From Pedobacter sp. N36a (GTDB lineage Bacteria; Bacteroidota; Bacteroidia; Sphingobacteriales; Sphingobacteriaceae): a DNA stretch of 64,000 nt. The DNA lies in the NCBI RefSeq assembly GCF_014472395.1, contig NZ_JACSZW010000003.1:124001-188000 (forward strand). Reading direction: 5' to 3'. The position numbers were made by a program, and so were the translations under genes. Every line of letters begins with the position of its first letter. Position 1 is the stretch's first letter. A model generated the notes under the pieces. That model saw only the letters and a program-made list of their open reading frames with translations. It was not told where the DNA came from and did no database searches. Shown in pieces: positions 35,638-63,455 of this stretch.

Positions 35638-36438
35638 ATGTTCAAATGCCTGTTCGCGAAAACCCCTAAGGACCTGTATGGCTGGTTTGGAGATTATTCT
35701 TCCTGGACGGAACTGGCCGCAGAAAGCAGTGGATATGGCGCAGAAGTGATCCTTGAAAAAACAAAAAATGCGATCCTGAAAGTGAAAAATGGCGAAGCAG
35801 TCTATGAAAGAGATTCCGTAAATCTGCCCAAAAAGGAATATCCATTCCCCCTAATCTCCTTTTTAATGCATAGTGCAGCCTCAAAAAGGAAACCGCTGAA
35901 TGTACTTGATTTTGGTGGCTCATTGGGCAGTACTTATTTCCAGATTAGGGAATTTTTAACGGAGGGTGTTTGTGCCAGCTGGAATGTAGTAGAGCAGGAG
36001 CATTATGTGGCCTGCGGTAAAGCACATTTTGAAGATGATCAGCTGAAATTTTATCCCAGCATTGCTGAAACATTAAAAGCCAAAGAAATCGACCTGGTGA
36101 TCCTTTCATCAGTGGTACAATACCTGGAAAAACCGCATGAGTTTTTGAAAGAACTGGTGGCCTATCAGTTCCCGTTTTTATTGTTCGACCGCACCGCTTT
36201 CCATCATGGAGATCAGGATCTACTCTGCCTACAAATTGTATCACCACAAATATATTCAGCTTCTTATCCATCCTGGTTCTTTAACCAGCAGGGATTTTTG
36301 AGCCACTTCCAGAATCATTACCAGCAGATCGCAGAATTTCCTTCTTATGTAAAAGGAGAAGAAGCCATGCTGATCAATGGAAAAGAACTGGGTTACGACA
36401 AAGGTTTTTACTTTATTCATTCATCAGGTTATGCTTAA
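35638..36438 (+). CDS. TIGR04325 family putative methyltransferase
   Basis: 266 residues with the family opening YGWFGDYSSWTELAAESSGYGAEVILEKTKNAILKV and a Rossmann SAM site (LNVLDFGGSLGSTYFQIREFL). The middle has IDLVILSSVVQYLE, as in class I methyltransferases. Proteins of this family occur in surface-polysaccharide loci and are thought to methylate a sugar or polyprenyl-linked glycan. Its stop overlaps the start of the glycosyltransferase gene by 8 bp. It begins a new transcript, divergent from miaB. Confidence 0.85.
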   Translation: MFKCLFAKTPKDLYGWFGDYSSWTELAAESSGYGAEVILEKTKNAILKVKNGEAVYERDSVNLPKKEYPFPLISFLMHSAASKRKPLNVLDFGGSLGSTYFQIREFLTEGVCASWNVVEQEHYVACGKAHFEDDQLKFYPSIAETLKAKEIDLVILSSVVQYLEKPHEFLKELVAYQFPFLLFDRTAFHHGDQDLLCLQIVSPQIYSASYPSWFFNQQGFLSHFQNHYQQIAEFPSYVKGEEAMLINGKELGYDKGFYFIHSSGYA

Positions 36439-37438
36439 ATTCTGTACGCTTTTTAATACCACCTATCTTTCCCGTGGCTTAGCCATGTACCATTCTCTGG
36501 AGCAGAATTGCCCGGACTTTCATTTGTATGTTTTTGCATTTGATGCGCATTGCTATGAGCTGCTGTCGAGCATGGCGCTCCCAAAGATCAGCGTGATCTC
36601 CCTGCAAGAATTTGAAAATGAAGCACTGCTGGCAGTAAAACCAGGGCGGACTGCACAGGAATACTGCTGGACTTCCGCTTCCTCTACAATTAAGTATTGT
36701 ATAGAAAGTTTTAACCTGGACCATTGCACTTATGTAGATGCTGATCTGTTGTTTTTCAGCAATCCACAGGTTTTAATGGAGGGGATGGGTGAAAAATCTG
36801 TGCTCATCACTGAACATCGCTACACACCTTGTTACGACCAGTCTGCTAACAGCGGCATTTATTGCGTACAGTACATGACCTTTAAGAATACACCAGAGGG
36901 CTTGGAGGTGCTGAATTACTGGGTAGATTCTTGTTTAGAATGGTGTTTCAATAGGTTAGAAGAGGGGAGGTTTGGAGACCAGAAATACCTGGACAACTGG
37001 ACGGAGAAGTTTTCCTGTGTACAGGTATGCCAGCATCTCGGTGCAGGCGTTGCGCCCTGGAATATTCAGCAGTATACTTTTAAGACAAAATCAGGAAAAC
37101 CACGCGGTGTGGAAATAGCCAGCGGTCGGGAGTTTGACCTGGTGTTTTACCACTACCATGGCTTCAGCTATTCTGTGAAAAACAGCTATATGCTGACACA
37201 TGCAGCGTACCAGCTTAGCAGAAATCAAATCAAACAGATTTACAGACCTTATGTATCGGCACTTTCTATCGCCGAGCGAAGTATCAAAAGCGCAGACCGC
37301 AATCTGATTCCACATGAGATTAATAATGAAATGGAGTTGATCACCAGGGTTTTAGGGCGTTTCCTGATTTTTACGCTCCTGGGATATTATAAAAACTTAT
37401 ACACCAAAAGATCTTTTCAGTATGGCTTTATATATTAA
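36431..37438 (+). CDS. Glycosyltransferase-like protein (nucleotide-sugar type, A-fold)
   Basis: 335 residues from ATG at 36431; an upstream in-frame start inside the methyltransferase gene was rejected. The start FCTLFNTTYLSRGLAMYHSLEQ is that of glycosyltransferases, and YVDADLLFFSNPQVL carries the metal-binding DxD (D-A-D). A later motif HLGAGVAPWNIQQY matches the acceptor side of GT8-like enzymes. It likely adds a sugar to a cell-surface glycan. The 8-bp overlap indicates coupling with the methyltransferase. No other polysaccharide genes are nearby, so the pair is an isolated island. Confidence 0.82.
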   Translation: MLKFCTLFNTTYLSRGLAMYHSLEQNCPDFHLYVFAFDAHCYELLSSMALPKISVISLQEFENEALLAVKPGRTAQEYCWTSASSTIKYCIESFNLDHCTYVDADLLFFSNPQVLMEGMGEKSVLITEHRYTPCYDQSANSGIYCVQYMTFKNTPEGLEVLNYWVDSCLEWCFNRLEEGRFGDQKYLDNWTEKFSCVQVCQHLGAGVAPWNIQQYTFKTKSGKPRGVEIASGREFDLVFYHYHGFSYSVKNSYMLTHAAYQLSRNQIKQIYRPYVSALSIAERSIKSADRNLIPHEINNEMELITRVLGRFLIFTLLGYYKNLYTKRSFQYGFIY

Positions 37439-37467
37439 TAAAATGTAACGGTAAGGATCTTCAATAA

Positions 37468-37500
37468 ATTAGTATTTTAGTCGCCGACTAAAATACTAAT
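37468..37500 (+). promoter_or_regulatory. 33-bp perfect palindrome abutting the CHRD lipoprotein start codon
   Basis: Left arm ATTAGTATTTTAGTCG and right arm its exact complement, with a single central C. It ends one base before the ATG at 37501. As RNA it would be a long hairpin at the start; as DNA it is a large dyad containing two nested TTAGT/ACTAA pairs. No U-run follows, so a terminator is less likely than an operator or translation-blocking hairpin. Confidence 0.6.
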
Positions 37501-37980
37501 ATGTGGGATGTTAAAGGTCAGGGATTTACATTGTTCAAGATAGGGGTGTTGTGGATGATGATTGTACTAGGTGGCTGTAAAAAAGAAGCGGCGCAAAGTC
37601 AGAAGATTAAACCCCCGGTCAGGTCTTATGTAGTCACTGCAAGGATAGATAAAAAAGGAACAAATACAGACTCGGAAGGTACTGCAGTATTCAAGGGAGA
37701 TTATGATCAGGGAACAAAATTATTGAGGTATACACTGGAATATGAAAAAATAGTGCCCGAACAAATCAGTTTGCGAAATGGAGTAAAGGGCTCAAAAGGA
37801 ACTTTAATCCGGGAATTGTATAAGCCGGGAAGTACCCTACTAGGAGCTCAATTGTCAGGTTCCATTGTATTGACACCCCTGCAGGAACGAAACCTGCTGA
37901 AAGGATACTGGTTTGTAGCGATCAATACTTTACAGCGCGCTCCCGAAATTTCAGGAGTACTTACCTTGAAACAAAGTTAA
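37501..37980 (+). CDS. CHRD-like lipoprotein
   Basis: 159 residues. The N-terminus has a hydrophobic stretch and a lipobox ending at Cys26 (MMIVLGGC). The body follows the CHRD pattern (a beta domain found in chordin): TARIDKKGTNTDSEGTAVFKGDYDQGTKLLRYTLEYEKI, then a final WFVAINT and SGVLTLK. The His-containing segment of CHRD is not conserved, so the assignment is by pattern. It lies directly behind the palindrome and 7 bp before the ECF sigma gene, which makes it the first gene of the operon. Its function is unknown; it may be the surface ligand-binding partner of the TonB receptor. Confidence 0.7.
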   Translation: MWDVKGQGFTLFKIGVLWMMIVLGGCKKEAAQSQKIKPPVRSYVVTARIDKKGTNTDSEGTAVFKGDYDQGTKLLRYTLEYEKIVPEQISLRNGVKGSKGTLIRELYKPGSTLLGAQLSGSIVLTPLQERNLLKGYWFVAINTLQRAPEISGVLTLKQS

Positions 37981-37987
37981 GCGTCGC

Positions 37988-38599
37988 ATGGGTAAAGCAG
38001 AGATGAATACTGGGCCTGATGATGATTTATTGCTGATGGATGCCATCAGGCATAAAGATAGAAAGGTGTTTGAAGCCTTTTATAAAAAGTATTACCGACA
38101 ACTGTTTATCCTCGCGTTTAGATACGTAGGGAGAACGGAAGCCGCAGAAGAAATTGTACATGATTTGTTCATTAATATATGGAATAAAGCCGGTCAGTTA
38201 AATATTCAGTATGCCATGAAAAGCTATTTGTTTCGGTCAATTGTTAATGCATCCCTGAACTTCCTGAAAAAAGAAAAGCAGGATGCCGCAAAACAACTGA
38301 CATACCTGGCCGATCAGCTGCCTGAAAATCCAGAGGAAGAAAACCTAAACAAAGAAGAATTGTTGTTGAAAAACCTGGAAGAAGCGCTGGCTCTTTTACC
38401 GCCGAAATGTAAAGAGGTGATGTACCTGAGTCGCTTTGGTAAATTGAAACAACAGGAAATTGCCGACCAGATGAATATCTCGTTAAAAACAGTTAAAAAC
38501 CATTTGACATATGGCTTTCAGAAGTTAAGGGAACACCTCGGAAAGTCTGCAGCGCTCTTGCTGGCGATAGTTATGTTCCTAAAAACGCTGTTACGTTAA
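37988..38599 (+). CDS. ECF-type RNA polymerase sigma-70 factor
   Basis: 203 residues. Region 2 (KVFEAFYKKYYRQLFILAFRYVGRTEAAEEIVHDLFINIW) and region 4 (ALALLPPKCKEVMYLSRFGKLKQQEIADQMNISLKTVKNHLTYGFQKLREHL) are clear. It is of the Bacteroidota expansion family that is paired with FecR and a TonB receptor. It should be held inactive by the FecR-type protein encoded 10 bp downstream and released when the receptor binds its ligand. A hydrophobic C-terminal tail is typical. Confidence 0.96.
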   Translation: MGKAEMNTGPDDDLLLMDAIRHKDRKVFEAFYKKYYRQLFILAFRYVGRTEAAEEIVHDLFINIWNKAGQLNIQYAMKSYLFRSIVNASLNFLKKEKQDAAKQLTYLADQLPENPEEENLNKEELLLKNLEEALALLPPKCKEVMYLSRFGKLKQQEIADQMNISLKTVKNHLTYGFQKLREHLGKSAALLLAIVMFLKTLLR

Positions 38600-38609
38600 A
38601 CCGCCTGTT

Positions 38610-39626
38610 ATGAAAAATTTTGAAACAAATGAATCGTTTATTTTTTCCCTGATCATTGAAGATCTCGAAGAAAAGATTAGCGCGGAAAATAAAATAATTC
38701 TCCTCCAATGGAGGAATGCAGACCCGGAAAATGAAAAACTGTATCAGGAATTTTTAGGGGTACAGATCAATCTGGATAAATTGATGGAACGGCATGAGCT
38801 GGATGCGCATCATTCCTGGACAGTGCTGGAGGAGAAACTCAACCAGTCTGCATCATTCTTTTCGCAGCATAACGAGCCTGTACCACCCTTGAAAAATAAG
38901 ACACTGCCTTATTTCTGGATCAAAATAGCAGCCATGTTTTTGATTTTATCAACGCTGGGCTACGGTTACTTCTTTTGGAAAAATAAGGATGTGGTGATCA
39001 ATACCGGAACGGCAGTACTCACCAATGTGGTGCTTCCTGATGGTACAGACTTGAAACTTAATGCCGGAACGAGCATTAGCTACAGTAAAAACAACTTTCT
39101 GGCGGACCGTAAACTGGTGCTGATCAAAGGTGAGGCCTTTGTTCAGGTGGCCGCCAATACGGCATCGCGTTTCAGAGTGGAGCTGGGAGATGTACAAGCG
39201 AAAGATATTGGTACCCGCTTTAACATCAGTAGAAATGAAAATCAATCTACAGTAACCGTCGAAGAAGGGCAAGTAGAATTATGGGAATATGGAACCGAAA
39301 GAAAAGTAAATCTGACCGCAGGTAAACTGGGTATTTACGATGTCAGGAATAAAACATTGATGGCCATCGATAATCCTGACCCTAACTTTAAGGCATGGCT
39401 GGATAAGAGTTTCGTCTTTAATGCTGCTCCACTGCAGGAAGTACTGGAAAAACTAGGCTCCGTTTATCAGATTAAGATAGAGATGGAAGGGCAGGTGCTG
39501 AAAGATAGAAAGCTGACTGCCAAATTAAAATATCAGCAGCTGGATAGTGCCTTAGCAGTAATTGCGGCCTCTTTAGATTGTAAATTGATCCAGCGCAATG
39601 GTACGTTTGTTTTAGCTGGTAAATAA
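38610..39626 (+). CDS. FecR family anti-sigma factor
   Basis: 338 residues. A cytoplasmic helical N-terminus (1-90), one transmembrane helix (about 104-122, IKIAAMFLILSTLGYGYFFW) and a periplasmic FecR domain (about 130-230, VLPDGTDLKLNAGTSISYSKNNF, LIKGEAFVQVA) followed by a DUF4974-type domain (about 265-335). It binds the sigma factor in the cytoplasm and the STN domain of the receptor in the periplasm. Its stop overlaps the receptor start as TAATG. Confidence 0.95.
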   Translation: MKNFETNESFIFSLIIEDLEEKISAENKIILLQWRNADPENEKLYQEFLGVQINLDKLMERHELDAHHSWTVLEEKLNQSASFFSQHNEPVPPLKNKTLPYFWIKIAAMFLILSTLGYGYFFWKNKDVVINTGTAVLTNVVLPDGTDLKLNAGTSISYSKNNFLADRKLVLIKGEAFVQVAANTASRFRVELGDVQAKDIGTRFNISRNENQSTVTVEEGQVELWEYGTERKVNLTAGKLGIYDVRNKTLMAIDNPDPNFKAWLDKSFVFNAAPLQEVLEKLGSVYQIKIEMEGQVLKDRKLTAKLKYQQLDSALAVIAASLDCKLIQRNGTFVLAGK

Positions 39627-42175
39627 TGACTTTCTATTTTCGGACGCTGATATGCCTTTTACTATTACTTGCTGCGGGAACAACGGTTGTCTGTGCCCAG
39701 CATGAAAGTGTACTTGATCAGCCGGTCAGTATTCAGGTGCCTGCAGATGGTCTCATCCGCGTGTTGCAGCTGCTGGAAGAAAAAGCAAAATGTAATTTTG
39801 CCTTTGATCCAGACTTATTGCGAAATAAAAAATCAGCAGCGCTGAATGCTGTTCAAAGACCATTGTCAGAGATTTTAAGTCAGCTGTTATTTGGCTCGAA
39901 TTTAGGATTTAAGCGGGTAGGAAATGACATTGTCATTAGCCCCCTCAAAGAGAAGAACTGGATCATTAGCGGTCATGTGCGTGACCAGGCGAGTGGAGAA
40001 GTCCTGATTGGAGCCACTGTTTACCTGCCCAAGCTTGGTCTCGGGATCAACACCAATCCATACGGTTTCTTTTCTTTGTTTATTCCTGAAGGCGTTCATC
40101 AGTTAATGATCTCCAATACCGGTTTTCAAACGAGGGAAGAACCGATTCGTTTAGATCAGGATGTACAGCTCAATATCGAACTAGCCTTAAAGACCAGCCG
40201 CTTAGCAGAGGTAGAGATAAAATCCAGTAACCTTAGGCCAAACCCCATTCTTTTAAATGAGCAGAATTTAGGGCCTGCCCAGTTGAATAATGCTGCTTAT
40301 TATGCGGGTGAAGTAGATGTAGTGAAAAGACTGCAGATGCAGAACGGCATAAAATCATTGTCGGAAGGTAGTTCCGGCTTGTTTGTAAGAGGAGGGAACT
40401 CCGATCAGAACCTGATCCTACTCGATGAGGCCATCGTGTATAATCCTTCTCATTTATATGGACTGGTTTCTGTTTTTAATCCGGATGTGGTCAATAATAT
40501 CCAGGTGTTTCGGGATTATATCCCTGCTAATTTTGGTGGCCGCCTCTCCGCTGTAGTTATTAACCGCATGACCGAAGGGAATAATAAACAGTTTCAGCTG
40601 AGCGGAGGACTCAATTTCCTTTCGGCGCGCATTGCCGCAGAAGGACCGATTGTAAAAGATAAGGGTTCTTTTATCGTCGCTTTTAGAAGGAGTTTATTGG
40701 ATGTTTTCCAAAGTAAGTTTAAGCTGTTCAATCCTTTTTCTGTGTATTACGACATCAATGCAAAGGCGAATTATAAGCTCAACCAGAACAACACCATTTT
40801 CTATTCTGTCTATGCCGGAAAAGATAAACTACTTTCTGAAGACGCATACACCAACAACTGGGGAAACCTGACTTCCACCTTCCGCTGGAACCATATTTTT
40901 AATTCCACGATTTTTCAAAACGTATCCCTGATCTATAGTAATTACAATAACCTGCTGGATTTAAACGCAGATACACTGTCTCAAAAAATACAATGGCAAA
41001 CCCGGGTAAGGGATGTCACCCTGAAAGCTGATTATACCTATTACCTGAATCCTCTGAATCAGATTAAGTTTGGCGGCTCGGCCATCTATCATCAGTTTAA
41101 TCCTGGTGAGGCGAAACAATCTCCAAATGATGAGTTCAATATTCCTGGAGATCAGAGTCTGGAAGCAGCGCTGTACTATGCTCAGCGCCTCACTTTAAGT
41201 TCGCATTTTGAATTGGATTACGGCCTTCGTCTGAGTTTATTTAAAAACAATGAAATGCGTAATAACGTGTTTGACGACCAGGGGAATCGGATAGAAACGC
41301 ATGAGGTTAAACTATTTGTAAAGCCAGAACCTCGTCTCAATCTGAGTTATCTGCCAACTAAAGACCAGCGTTATTTCTTTACGTATAACCGGAATTTTCA
41401 ATACCTGCAGCTGATTCAAAACAGTACACTAGCATTTTCTTCTCTGGAGCCCTGGATCCCAGCGTCAAAAAGTATCAAGCCACAGCGCTCAGACTATTTT
41501 TCTCTGGGATACCAATATAGGCCTAGCCGATATGTCTGGTCGGCAAATGCCTATTACAAGCGGATGGAAAATCAACTGGAACTGACAGACCATGCACAGA
41601 TCATCAAAAATCCTGAGGTTAGGCAGCAATTGAAATCAGGAATGGCAAGGGCTTATGGGATGGAATTGGAGCTGACCAAATCGGAAGGGCAGTTTTCCGG
41701 TACCCTTGCCTACAGTTATTCCAGAGTATTTCGAAAAATAGAGTCACTCAACTTCGGAAAGGAGTTTGTAGCCAATTATGACATCCCTCATGAGTTGAAG
41801 ATCACGGCCAAATACGATATGACTAAAAAACTGTCGTTACAAAGCTTCTTTATCTGCTCAACAGGCAGGCCATTGACCCTTCCCGTTGGCTATTACCAGC
41901 ATGATGGCTTGAATGTGCCTATCTTTGAAGAAAGAAATACGGCGAGATTTCCAGTGTTCAGCAGACTGGACCTTTCCGCACAGTACCAGTTTAAGAGCAG
42001 AATAGCTGGCGAACGATTCTTGTCGAGCGTGCTGTCTGTTGGTGTTTACAATCTTTACAACCGCAAAAACCCATTGTATTACCACTTGAATCCTTCTGTA
42101 GTTGAAGCAAAAAAGAGTAATATTGAGTATGGTTTAGGGATTTATCCATGGATAGCCTACAGTTTTAAAATTTAG
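39626..42175 (+). CDS. FecA-like TonB-dependent receptor with STN signalling domain
   Basis: 849 residues. A signal peptide ends at about residue 24 (VVCAQ). The STN domain (about 30-105, LLEEKAKCNFAFDPDLLRNKKSAALNAV) touches the anti-sigma factor. Next come a carboxypeptidase regulatory-like domain (115-200), plug (about 205-330, LFVRGGNSDQNLILLDEAIVY) and barrel. This is the transducing receptor of the sigma/FecR cassette. The ligand is unknown; no SusD-type gene is present, and a DUF4249 lipoprotein follows after 1 bp. Confidence 0.95.
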   Translation: MTFYFRTLICLLLLLAAGTTVVCAQHESVLDQPVSIQVPADGLIRVLQLLEEKAKCNFAFDPDLLRNKKSAALNAVQRPLSEILSQLLFGSNLGFKRVGNDIVISPLKEKNWIISGHVRDQASGEVLIGATVYLPKLGLGINTNPYGFFSLFIPEGVHQLMISNTGFQTREEPIRLDQDVQLNIELALKTSRLAEVEIKSSNLRPNPILLNEQNLGPAQLNNAAYYAGEVDVVKRLQMQNGIKSLSEGSSGLFVRGGNSDQNLILLDEAIVYNPSHLYGLVSVFNPDVVNNIQVFRDYIPANFGGRLSAVVINRMTEGNNKQFQLSGGLNFLSARIAAEGPIVKDKGSFIVAFRRSLLDVFQSKFKLFNPFSVYYDINAKANYKLNQNNTIFYSVYAGKDKLLSEDAYTNNWGNLTSTFRWNHIFNSTIFQNVSLIYSNYNNLLDLNADTLSQKIQWQTRVRDVTLKADYTYYLNPLNQIKFGGSAIYHQFNPGEAKQSPNDEFNIPGDQSLEAALYYAQRLTLSSHFELDYGLRLSLFKNNEMRNNVFDDQGNRIETHEVKLFVKPEPRLNLSYLPTKDQRYFFTYNRNFQYLQLIQNSTLAFSSLEPWIPASKSIKPQRSDYFSLGYQYRPSRYVWSANAYYKRMENQLELTDHAQIIKNPEVRQQLKSGMARAYGMELELTKSEGQFSGTLAYSYSRVFRKIESLNFGKEFVANYDIPHELKITAKYDMTKKLSLQSFFICSTGRPLTLPVGYYQHDGLNVPIFEERNTARFPVFSRLDLSAQYQFKSRIAGERFLSSVLSVGVYNLYNRKNPLYYHLNPSVVEAKKSNIEYGLGIYPWIAYSFKI

Positions 42176-42176
42176 G

Positions 42177-43007
42177 ATGAAAAGACATCGATTAACTTTA
42201 GTGCTATTGCTCTTAGTGGGCCTTTCCAGTTGTAAGAAGGCACTGGACGAGCGGTTTCTATCTCCCAAGCGCCAATACGATCTTGCGGTAGAAGGGGGCT
42301 TCAATACCCGTGTCTCTACCCAATCTATCCGTTTAACTAAACCTGCTTTAACCGTAGATGGACAGCCTACGCCTGTTTCAAAAGCGGTTGTCAGCGTTAA
42401 TGACGGTAAATCGGAAATGACCTTTAAAGAATCCAGTACGGCCGGAGTTTATACCGCAGTCAACAAAAATGAACCGAATTATAACGGAGCTTATAAACTA
42501 AAGGTGGTCTATAACGGACAAACCTATACTGCAGTGGATACTTTAAGGCAAGTAGTCAATATCGTGGATGACTTCCTGCCGCTTTCTACCCAGTTACTTC
42601 CAGACGGAATGTATGCAGGCACGATACCAAAACATACTTTCGGCTATCTTAATCCTAATAAATGGCTGATTTCCTATAAGGATATCCCACAATGGAATCC
42701 CGGGAAATTCGACCAGTCTAAATATTACAGTTATACCCATTTTCTGGGCTCCCCAAACTCACTGTATCCACTCAATAATCTCAAAAGAGATTTTGTATTG
42801 GGTAAAGACGATTACCTATACATCTATAAAATCTCCCTTTCCGAGCGTTATGCCAAATACCTGTATGATGTGTTCATGGAGACGGATTGGAATGGATTGT
42901 TTTCTGCGGTACCGGTTAATGCCACTGGAAATCTGACTGGAAATGCACAGGGGTATTTCTATGCAATAGATGTGGATGCTGGAAGGTATAAAGCATCTGA
43001 ACTTTAA
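42177..43007 (+). CDS. DUF4249 family lipoprotein
   Basis: 276 residues. Lipobox at Cys19 (LVGLSSC). The central beta-rich part and the terminal segment GLFSAVPVNATGNLTGNAQGYF match the DUF4249 family, which is regularly encoded after FecA-like receptors in Bacteroidota and is thought to be the surface lipoprotein partner of the receptor. The function is unproven. It starts just after the receptor stop and ends the sigma-FecR-receptor cassette. Confidence 0.82.
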   Translation: MKRHRLTLVLLLLVGLSSCKKALDERFLSPKRQYDLAVEGGFNTRVSTQSIRLTKPALTVDGQPTPVSKAVVSVNDGKSEMTFKESSTAGVYTAVNKNEPNYNGAYKLKVVYNGQTYTAVDTLRQVVNIVDDFLPLSTQLLPDGMYAGTIPKHTFGYLNPNKWLISYKDIPQWNPGKFDQSKYYSYTHFLGSPNSLYPLNNLKRDFVLGKDDYLYIYKISLSERYAKYLYDVFMETDWNGLFSAVPVNATGNLTGNAQGYFYAIDVDAGRYKASEL

Positions 43008-63419: not shown

Positions 63420-63455
63420 CCAGAAAAGGTTGCCTAAACAGGCAACCTTTTCTGG
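63420..63455 (+). terminator. Terminator-like hairpin after the TlpA gene
   Basis: Perfect 16-bp stem (CCAGAAAAGGTTGCCT / AGGCAACCTTTTCTGG) with a 4-base loop, 30 bp past the stop. No strong U-tract follows (TTAATGG), but the stem itself contains TTTT. Confidence 0.65.

Follow-up and report, generated by a model that had tools for sequence, protein, structure and literature searches.

In the window, by which we mean the whole 64,000-nucleotide stretch of Pedobacter sp. N36a DNA under study, a 33-bp perfect palindrome ends on the base before the first start codon of an operon that runs from a CHRD-like lipoprotein gene through an ECF sigma factor, a FecR-like regulator and a TonB-dependent receptor to a DUF4249-like lipoprotein. 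We tentatively propose, as a reading that is possible though not quite probable, that this palindrome may be a promoter-embedded fold-back element, whose left arm would carry the promoter of the operon and whose two arms together would leave the operon's own transcripts open to translation and read-through transcripts closed. The features on which the argument turns are the following:

36377..37438, plus strand: upstream gene, glycosyltransferase-like by eye, with its stop codon 29 nt 5' of the palindrome; a possible source of read-through
37468..37500, plus strand: 33-bp perfect palindrome, with arms 37468-37483 and 37485-37500 of 16 nt each, 100% complementary, and 1 nt between them
37469..37480, plus strand: conserved block TTAGTATTTTAG (orthologue form TTAGTAHTTTAG), 30-37 nt before the start codon in orthologues
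37473..37480, plus strand: TATTTTAG, putative -7 promoter box (a TAHHTTTG variant), 28 nt before the ATG
37485..37487, plus strand: predicted transcription start, in the loop or the first bases of the 3' arm, placed by the Flavobacterium spacing; a purine is conserved at 37487
37485..37500, plus strand: 3' arm, the probable A-rich 5' leader of the operon's own transcript, complementary to the promoter arm (from sequence and orthologue comparison)
37501..37980, plus strand: CHRD-like lipoprotein, 159 aa, first gene of the operon
37988..38599, plus strand: ECF sigma factor of the TIGR02985 type (family match)
38610..39626, plus strand: FecR-like anti-sigma regulator (family match)
39626..42175, plus strand: TonB-dependent receptor with an STN domain (family match)
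42177..43007, plus strand: DUF4249-like lipoprotein (26.7 bits, below the cut-off of 28.5)

The original prediction had described 16-bp arms that match perfectly around one central base and an ATG immediately 3' of them, and this description held, with its coordinates exact: the ATG of the lipoprotein gene lies at 37501, directly after the last base of the palindrome. In RNA form the palindrome makes a 15-pair hairpin of -14.8 kcal/mol whose last paired base adjoins the start codon. Perfect inverted repeats with an arm of at least 12 nt and a loop of at most 10 nt were absent from 20 first-order Markov simulations of 64 kb. When the whole 5.25-Mb genome was searched for the 31-nt core of the palindrome, with up to 3 mismatches allowed, a single site was found, and the multi-copy simple repeat that the original prediction had raised as a contrary explanation was rejected for that reason. 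An Rfam scan gave nothing near a gathering score, with one chance match to MIR6217 (15.2 bits, E 0.51), and searches by title and abstract in one collection of open-access papers yielded none on this palindrome element. Perfect inverted repeats with arms of at least 16 nt occur 27 times in 1.264 Mb of the genome, nearly all of them just 3' of gene ends, where they look like terminators; only two of the 27 have a start codon within 60 nt, namely the palindrome at 37468-37500 and one that precedes the gene of an HTH regulator. The window holds another inverted repeat with 16-bp arms at 63420-63455, 30 nt 3' of a thioredoxin-like gene (named by eye), which is terminator-like and of the type common behind genes here.

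The five genes of the operon keep their order and strand in each of the 25 relatives that are named, nearly all of which are Pedobacter species. The first product scores below the Pfam cut-off for CHRD, and 15 of 17 aligned family members match the domain at E<=1, the best at 2.9e-07. The gene at 36377..37438 has no Pfam or NCBIfam match; its homologue stands codirectional upstream of the operon in 24 of the 25 named relatives, adjoining it in about half of the relatives and being separated from it elsewhere by an aminotransferase-like gene (by eye). At 35 of 39 loci the closest ORF on the 5' side runs in the same direction as the operon, with 3 loci too short to judge and 1 called antisense. 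Bacteroidetes genomes can carry dozens of ECF-sigma genes, and in this 5.25-Mb genome the family TIGR02985 has 62 matches at E<=0.001, of which 27 exceed the cut-off and some are fragments.

A relative of the first protein is encoded in 42 of 145 genomes of the genus, and the 39 with an orthologue-grade match (E <1e-44) were analysed; tests given for 38 orthologues leave out the misaligned G099, and column statistics use 34 of the 39 rows, with G077, G059, G023 and G089 removed as near-copies and G099 as misaligned. The left arm, as TTAGTATTTTAG or a close variant, stands upstream of the start in essentially all 39 Pedobacter orthologues, both where the glycosyltransferase-like gene is adjacent and where another gene takes its place, and 7 of the 12 columns of its 12-mer are invariant over the 34 non-redundant rows, the flanking columns being far less conserved. 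For the right arm, the best ungapped complementarity to the left 12-mer reaches at least 8 of 12 positions in 20 of 38 orthologues, and in 18 of 38 it is better than in shuffled leaders at P<0.05. Several lineages show 12/12, 11/12 or 10/12 complementarity (shuffled-leader P<=0.004), and the perfect 16-bp form is confined to the genome of the window and its two nearest relatives, G077 and G059. Two further genomes, G030 and G114, keep 11/12 complementarity with wobble pairs, and the positions at which the clade of the window differs from them are Watson-Crick in that clade and wobble in these two genomes. The protein tree calls for about five changes of the hairpin state, as if the hairpin were ancestral and had been lost several times. 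Tolerance of G.U, with 24 G.U, 8 A.C and 14 other cells (recounted by hand), is weak once repeated changes are counted once. The original prediction had taken a loss of the palindrome in relatives with an unchanged operon as evidence against the element; the perfect palindrome does decay while the operon stays intact in 25 of 25 relatives, but the left arm persists.

The conserved left arm resembles a promoter. In Flavobacterium the -7 box is described as TAHHTTTG, transcription beginning 4-5 nt 3' of it, and a -33 element is not clearly seen in that account (PMC6847099); variants of the same box are reported for F. psychrophilum (PMC9723704). In 1.264 Mb of the present genome TAHHTTTG is enriched in the sense orientation 18-50 nt before starts (78 sense vs 10 antisense), and the next sense-enriched variant is TAHHTTAG (29 vs 10, with 2 of the 29 coming from this locus). 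TAHHTT[TA]G is carried by the left arm in 37 of 38 orthologues, as TAHHTTAG in 35 and as the exact TAHHTTTG in 2 (G008 and G097), while the remaining one has TATTTTGG, a count that is partly circular, since likeness to the motif was itself the means of finding it; this circularity does not touch the fixed spacing to the start or the box statistics of the genome as a whole. Within 100 nt, 33 of the 38 orthologues have no other TAHHTT[TA]G box, and G099, outside the count, has TAAATTAG 30 nt before the ATG. The distance from box to ATG, 28 nt in the window and 26-33 nt in the orthologues, falls inside the expected range of about 20-40 nt, and boxes of this kind also precede the ATG of several other ECF-sigma genes of the genome, at 19-31 nt. 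The clade of the window has two TAHHTTAG boxes in tandem, TAAATTAG TATTTTAG, at 37465-37480. No column of the orthologue alignment is conserved as a -33 TTG element, which is weak in Flavobacterium too as described in PMC6847099. An ECF-type promoter, for which CGT in the -10 region is given as a feature (PMC9723704), was rejected, as the conserved block has no CGT box.

With good confidence, we read the left-arm box as the -7 promoter box of the operon. Its conservation at a near-fixed distance to the start and its -7 box variant at genome-typical spacing make it most likely that the left arm serves as the core promoter, with transcription expected to begin in the loop of the palindrome. The arrangement is like that of the Bacteroidetes sigma-ABfr promoters, as far as these are described in PMC6847099, PMC9723704 and PMC7366714, in having TAHHTTxG about 28 nt before the start and an A/T-rich upstream region, and differs from them in having TTAG for TTTG in most orthologues and an extra conserved TTAG before the box. 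This extra TTAG (37469-37472; motif positions 0-3) is kept by most orthologues although a -7 box does not require it, and the masking model described below does not explain it.

The pattern TTAGTANTTTAG-N16-23-ATG, run over 144 genomes of the genus, gave scattered matches with no excess over a reversed-pattern control, as judged by eye, and a genome-wide regulon motif was rejected. Small repeated groups of non-orthologous matches were seen, and two of 8 such sites examined are followed by an ORF of 60 aa or more whose start is in range. The block TTAGTAATTTAGTCGC also occurs in front of an unrelated lipoprotein-like gene of 559 aa, 30 nt from its ATG (L217:1499-1531, in G062), with similar sites in G074 and G083. 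One clade has two further conserved 12-mer sites, continued by AAAACAT... or AAAAAT... (L211-L216, in G135, G126, G134, G008, G134 and G089), and behind these L211-L216 sites no ORF of at least 60 aa begins at an in-range ATG.

The ATG at 37501 is very probably the real start, because near relatives conserve the reading frame 5' of the lipobox and because the start codon keeps a fixed range after the left-arm motif, lying 30-37 nt after the motif start in all 38 orthologues measured. The original prediction was right that no space is left for a Shine-Dalgarno sequence, yet this is ordinary for the phylum, since Bacteroidetes mRNAs are described as lacking such sequences (PMC6847099).

Folding separates the two kinds of transcript that the locus could produce. 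RNA modelled from 37455 forms the full hairpin (z -4.4 against shuffles), and RNA from 37486 shows neither the hairpin nor any unusual structure (z -0.4), so that computation supports a hairpin that would be possible in long but not in short transcripts. To open positions -12 to +6 relative to the start, the model requires 16.0 kcal/mol for read-through RNA and 2.7 for the operon's own RNA, and 1.4% of 74 control promoters show a difference at least as large. Over the 38 orthologues the upstream segment raises the opening cost above that with shuffled segments at a mean z of 1.81, and with 21 lineage representatives the mean z for this masking is 1.70 vs 0.36 for the 74 control promoters (Mann-Whitney p 2e-4). 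The signal is strong in the clade of the window and partial across the 38 orthologues, being individually significant (p<0.05) in 17 of them and negative in z in 7. In clades without the right arm, the pyrimidine-rich spacer between promoter and transcription start, just behind the box, often pairs with the start codon instead, as in CCTTC with ATGAAGG or CCCATT with ATGGGG. Own pairs of spacer and start fit better than swapped ones (p 0.001, 13 distinct pairs), a result that is driven by few clades and has to be read knowing that the first codons are also constrained by the protein; members of clade B with CCTCC/GAAGG pair poorly. A general masking of codirectional genes was not seen in this genome (mean z -0.02 for 28 codirectional and 0.43 for 37 divergent genes), and the claim of insulation is for that reason a local one.

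Taken as a mechanism, these observations suggest the following course. The left arm would be the core (-7) promoter of the CHRD-sigma-FecR-TonB operon, and transcription would start in the loop if it begins 4-6 nt after the box. With such a start, the operon's own mRNA would lack the 5' arm and begin with the right arm only, as a short, A-rich and open leader; the position of the box and the folding both point to a promoter within the 5' arm, which would let short transcripts escape the hairpin. Transcripts entering from the codirectional upstream gene would carry both arms, fold the 15-pair hairpin up to the base before the AUG and presumably be poorly translated. With its own RNA open and the read-through RNA closed, the operon would thus depend on its own promoter for expression and be shielded from read-through. 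The earlier suggestion that a hairpin controls translation of the lipoprotein accordingly stays the best reading of the palindrome, though limited to transcripts begun further upstream, given the likely -7 box in the left arm. A wider version, which we regard as somewhat doubtful, is that the whole genus shares an insulation device: the core promoter of this ECF-sigma/FecR operon would double as the strand that masks the start codon against read-through, and evolution would have swapped the pairing partner, from a hairpin with the right arm to one between spacer and start codon, while keeping the mask.

The main rival is a DNA operator, also entertained in the original prediction, in which a dimeric repressor bound to the dyad would cover the -7 box and the transcription start and shut the promoter. 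We retain it, unlikely as we consider it. It would account for a perfect dyad centred at the expected start site and for the conservation of the extra TTAG at 37469-37472 beyond promoter need, and dyads in this genome can be autoregulatory operators, because similar ones precede HTH- and GntR-like regulator genes: the only other dyad near a start with arms of at least 16 nt in the 1.264 Mb closely follows a TACTTTTG box and precedes the HTH-regulator gene, and the top-scoring control promoter of the masking test precedes a GntR-like regulator gene. A symmetric site sits poorly, however, with arms that are unequally conserved, the left in essentially all orthologues and the right in about half, and with clades that lack the right arm and keep the left intact; the dyad has no second copy in the genome, and the operon encodes no repressor. 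Quite unlikely, in our estimate, is that the left arm alone matters, as a conserved -7 promoter with a short leader, and that the right arm is functionless and resembles it through history and base composition. The left arm alone is indeed universal, and the matches of the right arm are shared by descent in several basal lineages, with about five changes on the tree, but chance resemblance does not readily give the 12/12, 11/12 and 10/12 complementarity of several lineages at shuffled-leader P<=0.004, nor differences from G030 and G114 that are wobble there and Watson-Crick in the clade of the window.

Two further readings place the whole palindrome in RNA. It could lie in the normal mRNA leader behind a promoter further upstream, as a regulated start-codon hairpin such as a thermometer or a protein-bound element, and the AU-rich stem adjoining the AUG would suit this; we think it improbable, as no conserved -7 box lies upstream of the left arm, which is itself such a box, and many orthologues lack the hairpin. 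That it terminates the upstream gene is barely credible: it does sit 29 nt behind the stop codon of that gene, in the kind of place that most long dyads of the genome occupy, but it has a start codon at its 3' end, drew no terminator call and is lost as a hairpin in many relatives. An intrinsic terminator, with a GC stem and then a T run, was rejected after comparison with the 26 other long repeats, as there is no T run and the start codon stands at the end.

Two other dyads touch on the subject of operators. A perfect palindrome with 16-bp arms at G000:C22:263719-263752 ends two bases before an ATG, right behind a TACTTTTG box and before an HTH regulator gene (by eye), and a dyad AAACATC/GATGTTT at about 203980-204005 of G000:C11 has a TACCTTTG box on one side and, on the other, the ATG of a gene for a GntR-like regulator (by eye); both are probable autoregulatory operators. 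The original prediction had also tied TTAGT/ACTAA words in the palindrome to the dyads near a blaI-like gene. They are common to both as 5-mers only, and the arrangement ACTAA-N4-TTAGT is absent from the palindrome; a BlaI/MecI operator was rejected because the orientation of the half-sites is unfit and each arm matches that dyad only with 2 mismatches. The two ACTAA-N4-TTAGT dyads of the window, at 1749-1762 and 1774-1787, precede the minus-strand gene of a BlaI/CopY-like repressor (1305-1682) by 67-105 nt and look like the operators of that gene itself.

How ECF-sigma operons in codirectional clusters avoid read-through expression has, to our knowledge, been little studied, and the closest parallels come from elsewhere. 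In the fold-back inhibition of the IS10 transposase an inverted repeat hides the start solely when the RNA stems from read-through; IS10 is a mobile element, unlike the chromosomal operon considered here. In phage T4, gene e (lysozyme) and also soc, 49 and I-TevI are reported to have an inhibitory hairpin at the start region whose 5' strand contains a late promoter, so that long transcripts are masked and short ones open, with a 100-fold effect for gene e (PMC3014915). The palindrome shares with gene e, as a prediction, the promoter in the 5' hairpin strand and a masking restricted to long transcripts, and it differs in that the phage genes have Shine-Dalgarno sequences, whereas here a bacterial ECF operon without one would have the core -7 box itself in the stem. 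For sigG of B. subtilis, which lies downstream of another operon, a hairpin of 20 or more pairs has been proposed to block translation of read-through RNA and cannot form in transcripts from its own promoter (PMC5942855). A hairpin specific to read-through RNA and a sigma-factor gene behind another gene would be common to both cases, but phylum, promoter type and start-codon context are different, and here the first masked gene would be the lipoprotein, with the sigma gene second.

If the fold-back reading is true, the palindrome would be a promoter-dependent gate on translation in a phylum without Shine-Dalgarno sequences, would offer a simple test system in a culturable genus, and would provide a comparative case for TAHHTTAG as a -7 box.
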